Shown here piece by piece: positions 26,828 through 33,292 of a DNA stretch of 46,366 nucleotides (positions within the stretch are counted from its first letter, which is position 1; each line of letters opens with the position of its first letter). This stretch comes from Planctomycetota bacterium (GTDB lineage: Bacteria > Planctomycetota > UBA1135 > UBA2386). Location of the stretch: contig VGXW01000004.1 of NCBI GenBank assembly GCA_016873195.1, positions 1 through 46,366 on the forward strand. The letters run 5' to 3'. The translations under genes were made by a program, and so were the position numbers. The notes beneath the pieces are model-generated. The model made no database searches, was not told the origin of the DNA, and saw nothing but the letters and a program-made list of their open reading frames with translations.

Positions 26828-28090
26828 TCAGCTCTTCATCTGCTTCAGGCGCGCGATCGCGCCGAGCACGTTCTTGCCGCTCGTGCTGAGGGTGCCCGTC
26901 GCGTAGGCGGCGCCGGCCTTGCCGTCGGCGGGTCTGCTCGGCTGCGCGGCCTGGGCGCCCGGTGCCGGCGGCGGCGCTGCGGCTGTCGGCGCGTCGGACG
27001 CGGGTGCCGCCGCCGTCGCTGGTCGCGCCACGCCCTTCTGCACCGAAGCCTGGATCTGGGCCACGGCCGTGGCCACGCCCGACACCTCGCGCTGGATGTC
27101 GCGCACGGCGGATTCGATGCCGCCGAGGTTGCCTTCGCGCAGCCGCGACAGGCCTTCGGCGAGCCGCGCGGTGGTCTGGTCGACGTGCCGCTGCAGCTGC
27201 TCGGCGGCGCGCGCGATCGAGTCGCCGCGCAGCAGCGTCTGCACGTCGTCGCGCGCCTGCTGCGCCGCGTCCTCGAGCCGCAGCAGGCAGCGCCGGACCT
27301 CGCTGTCCTCGAGCCGCTGGGCGATCGCCTGCACCGCGACCTCGACGCGCGCGACCTGTTGCTGCAGCGGCTCCAGCGCACCGGCTGCGCCGGTGCGCCC
27401 GGCCAGCGCCGCGACGGCGGCGCCGAGCTCGGCGCCCTGCTCCGAGATCTCCATCAGGGGCTTGCCGTACATCTTGATCGCCTTCGTCAGGTTGTTGAGC
27501 TTGTCGTCCTGACGCTGCACGGCGATCAGCAGGTGCTGCAGTTCCTCGCCCTGAGGCGCTTCGGCCCTGCCGGGAGGCTGCGCCGTGGCCAGCGAGCTCA
27601 GGTGCTCGCGAAGTGCATCGGCGCCCGCGCCGGCCCGTTCTGCGTGCGCGTCGACGAGATCCTCGAGGCATGCCTGCCGCCGCCGTGTCGCGCCGACGCC
27701 GGCCAGCACCGCGCCGAGCACGACCAGATTGCCGGGAGTAGCACCCACACGCTCGGCCCAGGCGCTGGCGGCACCGTGCGGCGCCGCGCCGAGCGCAAGG
27801 CCGCCGAGCAGCACGGCGAACCCCGCGGCCGCCGTCGCCGCGCCGCGCCGCCTGCGCTGTGGCGCCGGCCGGTGGCGCTGGGCCGGCCGCCGCCCCGCGC
27901 GCGGTGGCGCCGCGGCATCGGCGGCGGGAGTGTCTGCACCCGGTTCCGCGCCAGGATCCGCGGGCGCCTCGGCAGGCTTGCCGGCAGGCACTTCGAGCCC
28001 GTCGGCCGGCGCGGCCGCTCCGGTCGTGCCGTCGTCCAGGAAGCTCGGCAGTCCCTGCTCGGGCTGCTCGGTCGTTGCCTCGTTCTTCAT
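26828..28090 (-). CDS. Membrane protein with long coiled-coil region, unknown function
   Basis: A 420-aa protein I cannot name. It starts with an acidic, Ala/Pro-rich region (residues about 1-95) and then a basic patch (RRPAQRHRPAPQRRRRG). Two short hydrophobic stretches (ATAAAGFAVLLGGLALGAA and NLVVLGAVLAGVGA) look like a membrane hairpin. The rest, from RQACLEDLVDAH to VSGVATAVAQIQASVQK, has long heptad-like helices (LQRHVDQTTARLAEGLSRL). It ends with an Ala/Pro linker and KNVLGAIARLKQMKS. The layout resembles a membrane-anchored scaffold. ATG at 28090. It is divergent from the PTS enzyme I gene, and 38 nt separates it from the mutarotase. Confidence 0.5.
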   Translation of the reverse strand: MKNEATTEQPEQGLPSFLDDGTTGAAAPADGLEVPAGKPAEAPADPGAEPGADTPAADAAAPPRAGRRPAQRHRPAPQRRRRGAATAAAGFAVLLGGLALGAAPHGAASAWAERVGATPGNLVVLGAVLAGVGATRRRQACLEDLVDAHAERAGAGADALREHLSSLATAQPPGRAEAPQGEELQHLLIAVQRQDDKLNNLTKAIKMYGKPLMEISEQGAELGAAVAALAGRTGAAGALEPLQQQVARVEVAVQAIAQRLEDSEVRRCLLRLEDAAQQARDDVQTLLRGDSIARAAEQLQRHVDQTTARLAEGLSRLREGNLGGIESAVRDIQREVSGVATAVAQIQASVQKGVARPATAAAPASDAPTAAAPPPAPGAQAAQPSRPADGKAGAAYATGTLSTSGKNVLGAIARLKQMKS

Positions 28091-28194
28091 CTTCGCGCGG
28101 TTGCTCCGGGGCGTCGATCGGCCAACGCGCGCCGCCAGGTGAAGCAGGCATGTTGCAAAGTACGCCACCGTCCCCGAAAACCCCGTGCTACCGG
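28091..28194. promoter_or_regulatory. Divergent gap ahead of the coiled-coil gene and enzyme I
   Basis: A 104-nt divergent space. A moderately AT-rich run (GTTGCAAAGTACGCC at 28152-28166, then CCCCGAAAACCCC) could hold the enzyme I promoter, but no consensus element is convincing. No palindrome is visible. Confidence 0.2.
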
Positions 28195-29964
28195 ATGGCC
28201 AAGAAACTCAAAGGCATCGCTGCGGCGCCCGGTGTCGCCATCGCGCCGGTCGTCCACTTCCACACGACTCTGGACCACATTCCGACCTACAAGGTCGGGC
28301 CCGGGTCGGTGGCGGCGGAGAAGCAGCGCCTCTCGCAGGCCGTGGCGGAGGTGGCGGCGGGCCTGCTCGCGCTGCAGAAGGAGCTGACCGACCAGATCGC
28401 TCGCCACGACGTGCGCATCTACGACGCGCAGCTGGCGATCCTGCACGATCCGACCTTCCGGCGCGACGTCGAGAACGAGATCGGCGCGCAGGGCGTCAAC
28501 CTCGAAGTGGCCCTGCAGCGCGTGATCGCCCGCTACGAGAGCGTGTTCGCGGCGATGGAGAGCACGGCGATGCGCGAGCGGGCCGCCGACGTGCGCGACG
28601 TCGGCCGGCAGCTGGTCGGCGCGCTGCTCGCCAAGGCGCGCACGAAGTACATCGCGAACGGCCAGGACTACCTGTTCGCCGCCGACGAGTTCCTGCCGAG
28701 CGACGCCGGCCTGCTCGACCGCAAGCACATCCGCGGCATCGTCACGGCGCACGGCGGCAAGTACTCGCACGGCGCGATCCTGGCGCGGTCGATGGGCATC
28801 CCGGCGGTGGTCGGCATCGAGGACGTGATGCTGGAGTCGACCACCGGCACCACCGCGATCCTCGACGGCGACGCCGGCGTGGTGATCCTCGAGCCGACCT
28901 GGGAGGACCTGAACCACTACGACCGCCTGCTGCGCGAGCGGCGTGGCCTCGAGAGCCGGCTGGCCGAGCTGCGGCTGCAGCCCCCGGTCACGACCGACGG
29001 CACGCAGGTGAGCCTGCAGGCGAACGTCGAGGGCGTGCAGGACCTGCAGGCGCTCGACATGGCCTCGATCGCGGGCATCGGCCTGTTCCGCACCGAGTTC
29101 GCGTTCATGGAGCGGCGGCAGTTCCCGACCGAGGACGAGCAGGTCGCGATGTACCGGCGCGCCATCGACAGCGCGCAGGGCAAGGTGGTGACCTTCCGCA
29201 CGCTCGACGTCGGCGGCGACAAGCCGCTCGGCTACTTCAGCATGCCCGAGGAACGCAATCCGGTGCTCGGCTGGCGCGGCATCCGGTTGTGCCTCGACTG
29301 GCCGGACATCCTGTACACGCAGATGCGCGCGATGCTGCGCGCGGCCGCCGGCGGGCGGGCCCGCATCATGCTGCCGATGATCACGAGCCGCAGCGAGGTG
29401 GTCCGCTGCCGCGAGGTGCTGCAGCAGCTCGTCGACGACCTCGCGGCCGCGGGCGTGCCGTACGACCCGAAGATCGGGCTCGGCGTGATGGTGGAGGTCC
29501 CGGTCGTCGTGGCCGTGCTCGACGACATCCTGCCGATCGTCGACTTCGTGTCGGTCGGCACCAACGACCTCGTGCAGTACCTGCTCGCGGTCGATCGCGA
29601 CAACCAGCGCGTCGCGAAGATGTACGACCCGTTCCACCCCGGCGTGCTGCGCGTGCTGCAGCAGATCGCCGGAGCCGCCGCGGCGGCGGGCAGGAGCGCG
29701 TCGATCTGCGGCGAGATCGCCGGGGACCATTGGTTCACCCCGCTGCTCGTCGGCCTGGGCTTCCGCGAGCTGTCGATGGCTCCCGTGTTCCTGCCGCGCG
29801 TCAAGCTGATGCTGCGCAGCTTCAGCGTCGACGAGTGCCGCGATCTCGCGGCGCGCGCGGTGGCGATGCAGTCGGCGGCGGCGGTGCGCCGGCTCGTGCA
29901 GGAGAAGATCCGCGTGCGGTGGGACCGGTTCGTCGGTGGATCGCACGAGGAGGCGCGGCCGTGA
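28195..29964 (+). CDS. ptsI: Phosphoenolpyruvate-protein phosphotransferase (PTS enzyme I)
   Basis: Enzyme I (589 aa) takes phosphate from PEP and passes it to HPr. The N-terminal half has GGKYSHGAILARSMGIP with the phospho-His (His192). The C-terminal PEP domain has GIGLFRTEFAFMER, the DVGGDKPLGYF motif, VSVGTNDLVQY and SICGEIAGD with the conserved Cys (505). No HPr, EII or HPr kinase gene is in the window, so it may work in a nitrogen-type or regulatory PTS. ATG at 28195. The stop overlaps the next gene's GTG by 4 nt. Confidence 0.9.
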   Translation: MAKKLKGIAAAPGVAIAPVVHFHTTLDHIPTYKVGPGSVAAEKQRLSQAVAEVAAGLLALQKELTDQIARHDVRIYDAQLAILHDPTFRRDVENEIGAQGVNLEVALQRVIARYESVFAAMESTAMRERAADVRDVGRQLVGALLAKARTKYIANGQDYLFAADEFLPSDAGLLDRKHIRGIVTAHGGKYSHGAILARSMGIPAVVGIEDVMLESTTGTTAILDGDAGVVILEPTWEDLNHYDRLLRERRGLESRLAELRLQPPVTTDGTQVSLQANVEGVQDLQALDMASIAGIGLFRTEFAFMERRQFPTEDEQVAMYRRAIDSAQGKVVTFRTLDVGGDKPLGYFSMPEERNPVLGWRGIRLCLDWPDILYTQMRAMLRAAAGGRARIMLPMITSRSEVVRCREVLQQLVDDLAAAGVPYDPKIGLGVMVEVPVVVAVLDDILPIVDFVSVGTNDLVQYLLAVDRDNQRVAKMYDPFHPGVLRVLQQIAGAAAAAGRSASICGEIAGDHWFTPLLVGLGFRELSMAPVFLPRVKLMLRSFSVDECRDLAARAVAMQSAAAVRRLVQEKIRVRWDRFVGGSHEEARP

Positions 29965-30722
29965 ACGGGCGACGGCTGCGGCGCGGCAACTGGTCCGTAC
30001 AGGAGCTCGAGCGCCTGCGCCACCTGCTGCCGCGGCGCGGCGTGCACGACACGGCGCTGCTGCTGCGGCGCTCGCCCGACAGCGTGTTCCGCAAGGCGAT
30101 GGACCTGCTGAAGGTCCCCGCGCGGCGCGGCGCCTGGACCACGAGCGACGACGCCCGGCTGCGCGACTCGTGGGGCGTCGTCGAACCGAGGCTGCTCGGC
30201 CCCATGCTCGGCAGGTCGTCGGTCGAGGTGGCGCGCCGCGCCGCGGAGTTGTGCGGCCAGTTGCGGGCCGGCCCGTGGACGCGCGACGAGCGACAGCAGC
30301 TGAAGGAACTCTACGGCACGCGCCGGGACGAGGATCTCGAGATCGCGCTGTTGCGTTCCCGCGCGGAGATCGCGGCGGTCGCCGCACAACTGTGCCTCGC
30401 CAAGGACAAACGCTTCGCGGCCGGCTACCAGCGGCCCGGCGGGGCGGCTCCCGAGGTGCGCGTCACGATGCCGCGCTGGACGCCGGCGGAGGTCGCGATG
30501 CTGCAGGGGCTGTACCCCGACCTCGACAACCTGACGGTGGCGCGCCGGCTGGGCAGGACCGTGACGGGCGTCGCGAACAAGGCCAACCAGCTCGGTCTCC
30601 GGAAGAGCCCGCGGCTGCTGGCCGACATCGGCCGGACCAACGTGGCCCACCGCTACGGCCACGCCGCGGCCGAGCGCGGGCCGGCCGGCGCGGGCGCCGC
30701 CGAGGCGGCGACCGAGGGGTAG
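29961..30722 (+). CDS. Four-repeat Myb/SANT-like DNA-binding protein
   Basis: A 253-aa basic protein built of four similar helical modules, each starting with a Trp: GNWSVQELERLRHLL, GAWTTSDDARLRDSWG, GPWTRDERQQLKELYG and PRWTPAEVAMLQGLYP. Each is followed by a helix-turn-helix that ends in a basic helix (RRSPDSVFRKAMDL, GRSSVEVARRAAEL, RSRAEIAAVAAQLC, GRTVTGVANKANQLGL). This spacing is that of Myb/SANT repeats or GcrA-like helix-turn-helix modules. DNA binding is inferred. The GTG at 29961 overlaps the enzyme I stop by 4 nt, so it is translationally coupled to ptsI and may be its regulator or a separate architectural protein. The C-terminal tail is Ala/Gly-rich. Confidence 0.65.
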   Translation: MNGRRLRRGNWSVQELERLRHLLPRRGVHDTALLLRRSPDSVFRKAMDLLKVPARRGAWTTSDDARLRDSWGVVEPRLLGPMLGRSSVEVARRAAELCGQLRAGPWTRDERQQLKELYGTRRDEDLEIALLRSRAEIAAVAAQLCLAKDKRFAAGYQRPGGAAPEVRVTMPRWTPAEVAMLQGLYPDLDNLTVARRLGRTVTGVANKANQLGLRKSPRLLADIGRTNVAHRYGHAAAERGPAGAGAAEAATEG

Positions 30723-30843: not shown

Positions 30844-31233
30844 ATGGAAATCGTCGGAAAGAAGAGCCAGGGCCTGTCGGTCACCGCGCTCAAGGAAGAC
30901 AAGACGGTCATCGTCTCGTTCAACGACCGGAGCCTGAACTTCTACGTGACCGACTCGCTGAAGGAGTCGTTGAAGGAGACGATCAACGGCAAGATCGAGG
31001 AGGGCTACCAGCACTTCGTGCTGAACCTCGACAACGTCAAGATCATCGACTCCTGCGGCGTGGGGCTGATCATCGTGGCCAACAACGTCACGTCGTGCCG
31101 CAACGCGAAGCTCTACCTGAGCAACATCAAGCCCTTCATCATCAAGATCTTCGAGATCATGCGGATCAGCAAGCACCTGTCGATCTTCGACAAGGAAGAC
31201 GACGCGCTGCAGGCGATCAAGAACGGCAAGTAG
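30844..31233 (+). CDS. STAS-domain protein, anti-sigma-factor antagonist type
   Basis: A 129-aa protein with the STAS fold pattern. KIIDSCGVGLIIVANN contains Ser70, the residue phosphorylated in SpoIIAA-type antagonists. The edge strands are KTVIVSFN and HFVLNLDNV, and the C-terminal helix is NGK. It is richer in Lys, Asn and Ile than its neighbours and its codon use is lower in GC. The role is partner switching with an anti-sigma kinase, but no such kinase or sigma factor is present nearby. ATG at 30844 with an upstream in-frame ATG at 30790 that adds a low-complexity stretch and is rejected. It heads a co-directional signalling cluster. Confidence 0.75.
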   Translation: MEIVGKKSQGLSVTALKEDKTVIVSFNDRSLNFYVTDSLKESLKETINGKIEEGYQHFVLNLDNVKIIDSCGVGLIIVANNVTSCRNAKLYLSNIKPFIIKIFEIMRISKHLSIFDKEDDALQAIKNGK

Positions 31234-31321: not shown

Positions 31322-32899
31322 ATGCCCACACTCCTGCACGCCCTGATCGTCGACCCCGACGCGGCGTCCGCGCAGCCCCTGATGGCCGCGCTGGCGTCGA
31401 CCGGGCGCACGGCGACTGCGGTGCCCTCGGCCGCCGCGATGCGGGCCGCCGTCGAACGGCAGGAGCCGGAGTCGGTCTGGGTCGCCGAGTCGCTGCCGGC
31501 CGCCGAGTGGTCCAAGGTGCAGCTGCTGGCCGGCCGCTGCGGGGCACCGCTCGTGCTCGCGGTCGCCGCCGCGGTGCCGGCGCCGGCCCACCTCGAGCGC
31601 GCGCTGCAGTGCGGCTGCGCCACCGTGCTGGGCGCCGGCGCGCCGGCGGAGCGCATCGAGGCGGCGTTCGCGCAGGTGCTCGCGCGGCGGCAGCACGCCG
31701 TGCGCGAGCGCGAGGAGCTGCGCCGGCTCAAGTTCCAGGCCGACGACCTCCGCCGCCGGTCGCTGCAACAGGCGGAGGCCTTCCACCGGGCCCAGGAGAC
31801 CTTCTTCCTCGATCTGTCCCGAATGATGACCATCATCACGAACATCATGGACGGCATCGTGTTCGTGGACCGCGGCGGCAACGTCACGCTCCTGAACCCG
31901 GTGGCCGAGGACCTGCTCGACACGAAGTCCTTCGTCGCGATCGGCAAGCCGCTCGGCGCCCTGCAGGGCCGGGCCGAACTGCTCGGCGCGCTGGTCGCCG
32001 ACCACGGGCGGCTCGAGACGCAGAAGGAGGTCGTGCAGACCGTCGAGATCCACCACAGCGAGCAGGACCTGCTCTACATCAAGTGCATCACGAGCCGCGT
32101 CGTCGACTACCGCGGCCAGCCCGCCGGCACGCTGTCGGTGTTGAAGGACGTGACGGCCGAGTTCAAGACCGACCAGCTGAAGAACCAGTACCTGTCGATC
32201 GTCGCCCACGAGCTGCGCACGCCGCTGACCGGCATCAAGACGTTCGCGACCATGATGGCGAAGGGCAGCCTCGGGCCGCTCGGCGACCGCCAGCAGCGCG
32301 TCTGCGAGTCGATCCGCGAGCAGTCGCTGCGGCTCGAGCACCAGATCGACAAGCTGGTCAACCTCGGCAACCTCGAATCGGCGGACTACGGCCGCGACCT
32401 CGAGGTGGTGCTGCTCGACGACTTCCTGGCGGGTCTGCTGCTGCCGTTCGAACAGCCGGCCCGCGACCGGCGCATCGAGCTGACGCTGGTGGCCGAGCCG
32501 GGCGACCACTGCCTGTACGCCGACCGGATCGACCTGCGGCGCGCGTGCCAGGCGCTGATCGAGAACGCGGTCAAGTTCACGGCGGACGGCGGCCACGTGC
32601 AGGTGCGCGTCGCGGCCACCCCCGACGGCGGCCTCGTGTTCGGCGTGTGCGACGACGGCATCGGCATCGACCCGCGCTACCACCGCCGCATCTTCGAGAA
32701 GTTCTTCCAGGTCGAGGATCCGCTGACCCGCCACCACGGTGGCGCCGGACTCGGCCTGTTCGTCGCCCGCGGCATCGTCGAGGCCCACGGCAGCCGCATC
32801 GAGGTCTTGAGCCAGCTGGGCCGCGGAGCCGATTTCTCCTTCGCACTGCCCGTGCATCCGCGGGTCGGTGCACCGTCGACCGCTGCAGCGCGTGCCTAG
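31322..32899 (+). CDS. Hybrid-like sensor histidine kinase with degenerate N-terminal receiver and PAS domain
   Basis: A 525-aa kinase without membrane segments. Residues 1-125 resemble a receiver domain (LHALIVDPDAASAQ) but the position of the phospho-Asp is replaced (WVAESLP), so it is probably a pseudo-receiver. Residues about 150-285 form a PAS-like sensor (TNIMDGIVFVDRGGNVTLLN). HisKA carries SIVAHELRTPLTG with His296. HATPase_c has ENAVKFTADGG, DDGIGID and GGAGLGLFVARGIVEAHG. It is followed 18 nt later by a response regulator. The natural signal is unknown; the enzyme is soluble and likely senses a cytosolic cue. Confidence 0.85.
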   Translation: MPTLLHALIVDPDAASAQPLMAALASTGRTATAVPSAAAMRAAVERQEPESVWVAESLPAAEWSKVQLLAGRCGAPLVLAVAAAVPAPAHLERALQCGCATVLGAGAPAERIEAAFAQVLARRQHAVREREELRRLKFQADDLRRRSLQQAEAFHRAQETFFLDLSRMMTIITNIMDGIVFVDRGGNVTLLNPVAEDLLDTKSFVAIGKPLGALQGRAELLGALVADHGRLETQKEVVQTVEIHHSEQDLLYIKCITSRVVDYRGQPAGTLSVLKDVTAEFKTDQLKNQYLSIVAHELRTPLTGIKTFATMMAKGSLGPLGDRQQRVCESIREQSLRLEHQIDKLVNLGNLESADYGRDLEVVLLDDFLAGLLLPFEQPARDRRIELTLVAEPGDHCLYADRIDLRRACQALIENAVKFTADGGHVQVRVAATPDGGLVFGVCDDGIGIDPRYHRRIFEKFFQVEDPLTRHHGGAGLGLFVARGIVEAHGSRIEVLSQLGRGADFSFALPVHPRVGAPSTAAARA

Positions 32900-32917: not shown

Positions 32918-33292
32918 ATGGAACGAACCGTCCTGATCATCGAAGACGAGAAACTCATCATCGTCTCCACGCAGATGGTGCTGGAGGCCGCCGGCTTCCG
33001 CGTCGATTCCGCGACGAACGGCGAAGACGGGATCGCCAAGGCCCGGTCGCGGTCGCCGGACCTGATCCTGCTCGACATCATGATGCCGGGCATCGACGGC
33101 TGGGAGACGCTGACGCGGCTCAAGCGCGACCCGGCGACCGCCGGCATCCCGGTCGTGATCTTCACGGCGCGCGAGCACGCGCGCGGGCATCAGAAGAGCT
33201 CGGAGATGGGGGCGGTCGACTACTTCCGCAAGCCGTTCGAGCCCGACGAACTGATCGAACTGGTCGCGAAGCACGTCGGCCAGCGCGCCTGA
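32918..33292 (+). CDS. Single-domain response regulator
   Basis: A 124-aa CheY-like receiver. The phosphorylation Asp is D53 (LILLDIMMPG), the acidic pair is E9/D10 region (LIIEDEK), the Thr is in IFTAREH, and the Lys is in YFRKPFEP. There is no output domain. It follows the kinase gene by 18 nt and is expected to be its phosphate acceptor. The output could be by protein contact, for example with the STAS or HD-like neighbour, but this is inferred from position only. Confidence 0.9.
   Translation: MERTVLIIEDEKLIIVSTQMVLEAAGFRVDSATNGEDGIAKARSRSPDLILLDIMMPGIDGWETLTRLKRDPATAGIPVVIFTAREHARGHQKSSEMGAVDYFRKPFEPDELIELVAKHVGQRA

Follow-up and report, generated by a model that had tools for sequence, protein, structure and literature searches.

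A ptsI gene joined to a gene for a four-repeat protein

The window, by which we mean the whole analysed stretch of 46,366 nucleotides from a Planctomycetota bacterium (contig VGXW01000004.1), contains a gene for PTS Enzyme I (EI) that runs into a gene for a Myb/SANT-like protein on the same strand:

28195-29964, forward strand: ptsI, PTS Enzyme I (589 aa); TIGR01417 match at 2.3e-156, catalytic residues present, placed by tree
29961-30722, forward strand: gene for a Myb/SANT-like protein of 253 aa with four repeats; begins with GTG and overlaps ptsI by 4 bp

The GTG start of the Myb-like gene at 29961 lies within the ptsI stop, and the resulting 4-bp GTGA overlap is as the preliminary description of this DNA had proposed. 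Within the window's family (f1), 28 of 33 loci share this overlap. In the other families, with start codons chosen by rule, the two genes overlap in just 2 of 41 loci and are separated by up to 928 bp. The Myb-like gene is the single match within its own genome, is matched in 144 of the 154 genomes of one Planctomycetota class and has dN/dS values of 0.19-0.36 in six pairs, indicating purifying selection; we therefore consider it a real gene. Removal of 23 loci (same-genome repeats, near-copies and L015, which is cut by a contig end) left 76 homologues, and 72 of these were aligned, leaving out L026 (odd length) and the extra copies L095, L097 and L099. The window protein is basic (pI 11.1), as are most of its homologues (median 10.7, lowest 5.5, n=72).

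Repeat architecture and predicted fold of the Myb-like protein

Alignment and structure prediction divide the protein as follows:

29982-30110, forward strand: repeat 1 (residues about 8-50); AlphaFold2 helices 13-35 and 39-49; aligned by hhalign with repeats 2 and 4
30123-30257, forward strand: repeat 2 (residues about 55-99); AlphaFold2 helices 61-70, 76-83 and 87-98
30267-30398, forward strand: repeat 3 (residues about 103-146); AlphaFold2 helices 108-120, 123-130 and 134-143
30468-30599, forward strand: repeat 4 (residues about 170-213), the best conserved and similar to the GcrA DNA-binding domain (DBD); VIA-align to 5yiu and PDB profile matches
30600-30674, forward strand: conserved C-terminal helix (residues about 214-238; consensus RLxxMGRxNVxxRY); alignment and AlphaFold2

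The four Trp-led helical repeats read from the letters in the preliminary description were recovered by both approaches. The repeats are mutually homologous and align without gaps (hhalign, 98.5-98.9 % for pairs 1-2, 1-4, 2-3 and 3-4), and the AlphaFold2 model (mean pLDDT 91.9, pTM 0.73) contains four tri-helical units. Per-repeat alignments of 24 of the 72 homologues gave a mean column identity of 63 % for the repeat 4 stretch versus 50, 43 and 50 % for the others, with the first Trp invariant in repeats 1 and 4, present in at least 90 % of sequences in repeat 2 and less frequent in repeat 3. Strong conservation is also found outside the repeat cores, in an LCLAKDK stretch into which repeat 3 continues and in the C-terminal helix, which AlphaFold2 places at residues 217-238, shortly before the end of the chain.

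The family profile matched c-Myb (1h88) at E 1.7e-6, with R1-R3 in register, and CEF1 at E 2.9e-4. Among the 72 homologues, PF00249 was matched at E <= 0.01 in 63 and PF13921 in 36, and PF07750 (GcrA) was matched in 9. The window protein alone scored 23.8 bits against PF00249, just under the curated cut-off of 24.4, and both PF00249 scores obtained lie below that cut-off. The ten best Foldseek matches were all SNAPc, Reb1 and spliceosome chains, which we take to be Myb-repeat proteins, with weak E-values (best 3.1e-3). The VIA-align list was headed by the GcrA DBD (5yiu), superposed on repeat 4 with a Z of 8.7 (rmsd 1.3, 47 residues), a value that can reflect a common arrangement. Comparison of each repeat with PDB profiles, along the lines that the preliminary description had suggested, likewise singled out repeat 4: its best PDB profile match was useful (9.6e-5) and its match to GcrA had an E of 0.021, while repeats 1 and 2 gave weak matches (about 0.003) and repeat 3 alone matched nothing convincing among the PDB profiles (best 0.12).

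A classical Myb repeat has three regularly spaced Trp residues, and in the 24 aligned sequences only the first is widely kept. A Myb/SANT-type tandem tri-helical fold is thus supported for the 253-aa protein by the predicted model and the register of the c-Myb match, but its strict Myb status is borderline, as the sub-threshold PF00249 score indicates; the assignment to Myb-type repeats in the preliminary description holds to this extent. From the basic charge and the homology we infer that the four-repeat protein probably binds DNA.

SANT domains that do not bind DNA are known, and the repeats could instead be SANT-like protein-protein modules, making the protein an EI adaptor or inhibitor rather than a DNA-binding regulator. 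That the partner of the gene is an enzyme would fit such a role, as would the strong conservation of LCLAKDK and the C-terminal helix outside the repeat cores. However, the basic character of the protein (pI 11.1; median 10.7 of 72, lowest 5.5), its similarity to the GcrA DBD and the match to c-Myb across three repeats all speak for DNA binding, and we consider an adaptor or inhibitor quite improbable.

Pairing with ptsI throughout the class

EI lies directly upstream of the Myb-like gene on the same strand in 139 of the 143 genomes with a listed gene position, a count that omits second gene pieces of G026 and G128, and also G107, whose fragment has no listed place. The pairing is thus a lasting one, in line with the regulatory link that the preliminary description had drawn from the overlap and had proposed to follow in relatives. 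Among the exceptions, the end of EI adjoins the Myb-like gene on the same contig in G038, partial EI matches are found on other contigs in G128 and G146, and G151 has no listed EI position. G107 has a fragment of the Myb-like gene and no EI match. The 10 class genomes without the Myb-like gene have weak EI matches only (2.9e-27 to 1.5e-83); since the two neighbours vanish together, their joint absence may reflect missing contigs.

The other neighbours of the pair vary by family (Tex, DnaE, a class II tRNA synthetase, or a STAS-HK-RR set) while ptsI is constant. In the window, the pair is followed by three genes whose position is conserved in families f1 and f6:

30844-31233, forward strand: STAS-domain protein, the next neighbour (PF01740, 6.9e-14)
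31322-32899, forward strand: PAS-type sensor histidine kinase
32918-33292, forward strand: receiver-only response regulator (PF00072, 4.2e-28)

Outside the class we searched with both a single sequence and a profile. Among 246 genomes drawn from across the phylum, the profile search returned 16 long matches, all from within the class, and 5 others that cover the repeat 4 region only; at most 10-11 candidates were scored per genome, so that absence elsewhere is not absolute. None of 24 out-of-class EI loci, these being the best-scoring ones fetched, had a Myb-like gene at a distance of up to about 1.5 kb, and all six in-class EI loci used as a positive control did. Six out-of-class EIs (G252, G235, G197, G169, G217 and G172) are 40-44 % identical to the window EI, comparable to the in-class EIs of family f8 (about 40 %), and all six lack an adjacent Myb-like gene, indicating that an EI of this kind works elsewhere without the Myb-like protein.

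This last result favors a different explanation, that the four-repeat protein is an independent DNA-binding global or cell-cycle regulator, used much as GcrA is, whose link to ptsI reflects joint growth-linked expression without any reading of the PTS. A GcrA-DBD-like repeat 4 and PF07750 matches in 9 of 72 homologues are consistent with such a regulator, and a gene found in 144 of 154 class genomes is what would be expected of a core one. Nevertheless, plain co-expression would not demand that ptsI stay constant while the other neighbours vary, and the GcrA sigma-binding domain was not found in the window protein. We regard an independent regulator as rather unlikely, though as the stronger of the two alternative roles considered so far.

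The gene may ultimately descend from a mobile element. All 72 homologues match PHROG 323 ('transcriptional regulator, D5-like') at E <= 0.01 (best 8.9e-45; window protein 1.4e-16), and similar multi-repeat proteins occur in plasmids. These matches would also fit a scenario in which a D5-like gene from a phage or plasmid inserted next to ptsI and has been retained passively. We rejected such a relic as highly improbable: the gene is class-wide and mostly single copy, its pairing is kept across families and it is under purifying selection. An origin in a mobile element could lie in the deep past.

The linked Enzyme I and the make-up of the PTS

The window EI scored 521.6 bits against TIGR01417 (cut-off 341.7) and has all six residues checked (H192, R299, R335, E434, D458 and C505), which we take, from their positions and roles in the E. 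coli enzyme, to be the catalytic His, the PEP-site residues and the general-acid Cys. In the EIs linked to a Myb-like gene, the His, the two Arg, the Glu and the Asp are present in 54 of 54 rows and the Cys in 53, the remaining row having a gap. In the second, unlinked EI (one per genome, G035 included), the general-acid Cys is present in none of 12 and the Asp in 4 of 12. Since these residues are kept in the one and the Cys is lost from the other, the linked EI is the canonical one where a second EI was examined. A tree of 41 linked and 12 unlinked rows, from which out-of-class EIs were left out, is split into these two sets by one branch with support of 100/100, and the window EI groups with the other linked EIs. 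G035, a class genome without the Myb-like gene, is included in this tree and carries only an EI of the unlinked type.

HPr and EIIA were each found in 36 of 36 genomes (the HPr match in G036 is weak, 1.6e-7), and an EIIC of the PF02378 type in none of the 36, although the same searches matched in 7 of 14 control genomes. Because HPr and EIIA are present throughout and this EIIC is absent, the PTS of these genomes looks regulatory, judged by gene content, and possibly does not move sugars. The HPr and EIIA of the window's genome have the expected His motifs. Their genes adjoin hpf and pilM/pilO/secretin genes, and in G050 rpoN is also near. According to an earlier account (PMC2405797), no PTS transporters were reported in Planctomycetes with a group R EI. 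EIs of group R are the kind that has been reported from Planctomycetes, and the account states that functional information on them was lacking as of 2008.

We considered direct phospho-His control of the Myb-like protein and disfavor it. Neither the window protein nor its 72 homologues have a PRD- or EIIB-type Pfam match, and no His is invariant or nearly invariant among the 72, which makes such control less likely than a signal through protein contact or expression.

A candidate regulatory site upstream of ptsI

A bipartite sequence precedes ptsI in the window:

28152-28180, forward strand: GTTGCAA-N17-GAAAA, candidate operator or dedicated promoter, separated from the downstream ptsI start by 14 nt

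The pattern GTTGCAW-N17-GAAAA is found before ptsI in all 34 f1 genomes, exactly in 30 and with one mismatch in four (G011, G012, G023 and G029), and the spacer is 17 nt in every one. In 30 of the 34 genomes, 9-15 nt separate the end of the site from the aligned ptsI start; in G003, G008, G011 and G012 the distance is 45-168 nt. When 20 whole genomes were scanned, the copy before ptsI was the sole exact match in 19; in G011 the single exact match lies elsewhere, and the reversed pattern matched once in the 20 genomes. As the pattern was derived from f1 loci, independent observations are limited to its uniqueness, the constancy of the spacer and its presence in genomes not used for the derivation. 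The best copies at 32 of 32 loci in other families have at least three mismatches, indicating that the site is not a class-wide operator. RNAalifold predicted no RNA structure at the upstream site (19 sites), and weaker copies in the window and at the HPr/EIIA locus were no more frequent than expected by chance.

From its sequence and position, the site may be an operator of the neighboring regulator or the promoter of the operon. The promoter reading concerns the site alone and is independent of the role of the protein: the two halves would be -35 and -10 elements 17 bp apart, recognized by an alternative sigma factor and giving a near-leaderless mRNA, and the site would be unrelated to the Myb-like protein. 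The 17-nt spacer in all 34 f1 genomes fits a promoter, as does the site's end 9-15 nt before the aligned start in 30 of them, and TTGCAA resembles the -35 hexamer consensus. On the other hand, GAAAAC is a poor -10 hexamer, the distance to the aligned start grows to 45-168 nt in four genomes, and a single exact copy in 19 of 20 genomes would be unusual for a promoter, though an exact pattern would miss degenerate ones. We put a promoter somewhat below an even chance.

Proposed mechanism

The reading we prefer, to which we give about an even chance, is that the four-repeat protein serves a regulatory PTS as its DNA-binding, gene-control arm, acting on the ptsI operon and responding to PTS state. 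The Myb-like gene would most likely be on the same transcript as the catalytically intact EI. Its product would bind DNA through the repeats, of which repeat 4 together with the C-terminal helix is the most constrained part, and would control at least its own ptsI operon by autoregulation. The activity or amount of the regulator would follow the PTS state via contact with one of the PTS proteins, EI foremost among the candidates, and the phosphorylation state could be signaled by such contact or by expression. The predicted fold, the repeat number, the class-wide pairing, the EI residues, the presence of HPr and EIIA, the absence of PF02378 and the conserved site before ptsI in f1 are all consistent with a DNA-binding arm of the PTS. 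Against it speak the confinement of the site to f1, the mostly non-overlapping genes of the other families, the lack of a conserved phospho-acceptor His or PTS-type domain, the out-of-class EIs of comparable identity that have no such neighbor, the weak Foldseek E-values, the poor PDB matches of repeat 3 and the PF00249 scores below the cut-off. A more specific version, in which the phosphorylation state of EI, set by the PEP/pyruvate ratio, causes EI to bind or release the Myb-like protein, which then acts via the 29-bp operator and on other genes, seems to us unlikely. If it were true, a whole bacterial class would couple its central carbon state to transcription via a Myb protein, which would replace PRD, Mlc or CRP-type regulators as the output of the PTS.

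What is new here is the fixation of a multi-repeat Myb-like gene beside a catalytically intact EI, as a core chromosomal neighbor throughout a class. A search of the full-text literature found no description of a ptsI/Myb-like pair, a weak negative since most subscription papers lie outside its coverage.

Comparison with known systems

The preliminary description considered four Myb-type repeats in tandem uncommon in a bacterium, a view that disregards D5-like proteins with multiple repeats encoded by phages and plasmids. The phage proteins of PHROG 323, a group named after D5 of phage T5, are, like the Myb-like protein, multi-repeat, Trp-led and helical, and a member from a Listeria phage aligned with the family at 96.8 % over 138 columns (hhalign). 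The single D5 sequence of T5, which its database record describes as DNA-binding and needed for DNA replication as well as late transcription, gave no significant alignment with the family profile (hhalign probability 1.8 %). A hypothetical protein with four Trp-led repeats from an Enterobacter plasmid (WP_223605364.1) aligned at 98.4 % across a stretch of 184 columns that begins in repeat 1 and reaches into repeat 4; its plasmid-borne gene lies between tssB and cas3, with no adjoining ptsI in that record. The four-repeat architecture is therefore not unprecedented and is known in mobile elements. Unlike the phage members, however, the gene described here is chromosomal, class-wide and located beside ptsI, so that an architecture otherwise met in this analysis in phages and plasmids appears as a core bacterial chromosomal gene.

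By its domain content, the Myb-like protein is neither a GcrA nor a PRD-type PTS regulator. GcrA of alphaproteobacteria combines a single DNA-binding domain with a C-terminal domain that interacts with sigma (PMC7403470). Its DBD superposes on repeat 4, but the window protein has four repeats, and Pfam searches did not find the sigma-binding C-terminal domain in it. With eukaryotic Myb-repeat proteins (c-Myb, CEF1/CDC5L, Reb1 and SNAPc) it has the fold and the tandem repeats in common, although only the first Trp of each repeat is well conserved here. Regulatory PTSs (group R EI and PTS-Ntr) comprise EI, HPr and EIIA without a PF02378 EIIC, as in these genomes, whose linked EI may be of group R; the account of group R EI in PMC2405797 names no Myb-like partner. 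A partner of the DNA-binding type, retained next to a catalytically intact EI while a whole class diverged, would offer a concrete and testable output.

Genes flanking the ptsI pair

The genes on either side of the pair formed by ptsI, which encodes Enzyme I (EI), and the Myb-like gene include:

26831-28168, (-) strand: divergent ORF upstream of ptsI
30844-31233: STAS protein downstream of the pair; next come a PAS histidine kinase gene and one for a receiver-only regulator

The STAS protein is unusually constant: its sequence identity was 73-96 % across the loci compared in the window's family (f1) and 75-79 % in family f6. The divergent ORF is also conserved in f1 and f6 loci, and a Pfam search with it returned zero matches at E <= 0.001. 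The class's ptsI pair was also found on two contigs from public MAGs (L034 and L044), whose titles name Ca. Kuenenia stuttgartiensis and Singulisphaera sp. GP187; these organism names look doubtful.

Other PTS genes and EIs outside the class

Further PTS genes lie apart from the pair:

L163 4286-6238 (G000:C148): second EI paralogue, with 11 further loci likewise
L164 1636-8356 (window's genome): EIIA and HPr genes, with hpf on one side and pilM/pilO/secretin genes on the other

The second paralogue lacks the general-acid Cys at all 12 loci and has the Asp at only four of the 12; it is perhaps a non-catalytic or regulatory EI. Outside the class, the EIs of six genomes (L208-L212, L214) share 40-44 % identity with the EI of the window, which makes them as near to it as some in-class EIs, and none has a Myb-like neighbor. 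This similarity could reflect either transfer or an older EI type.

Other Myb-like and multi-repeat proteins

Five genomes have a second Myb-like copy or piece at a site separate from the linked EI (G086, G089 and G072, at L095, L097 and L099, respectively; also G090 and G112). Such repeats, counted by eye, are also present in two plasmid proteins annotated as hypothetical:

L202 2162-3436: Sphingomonas, about six repeats
L203 2528-3160: Enterobacter, four repeats
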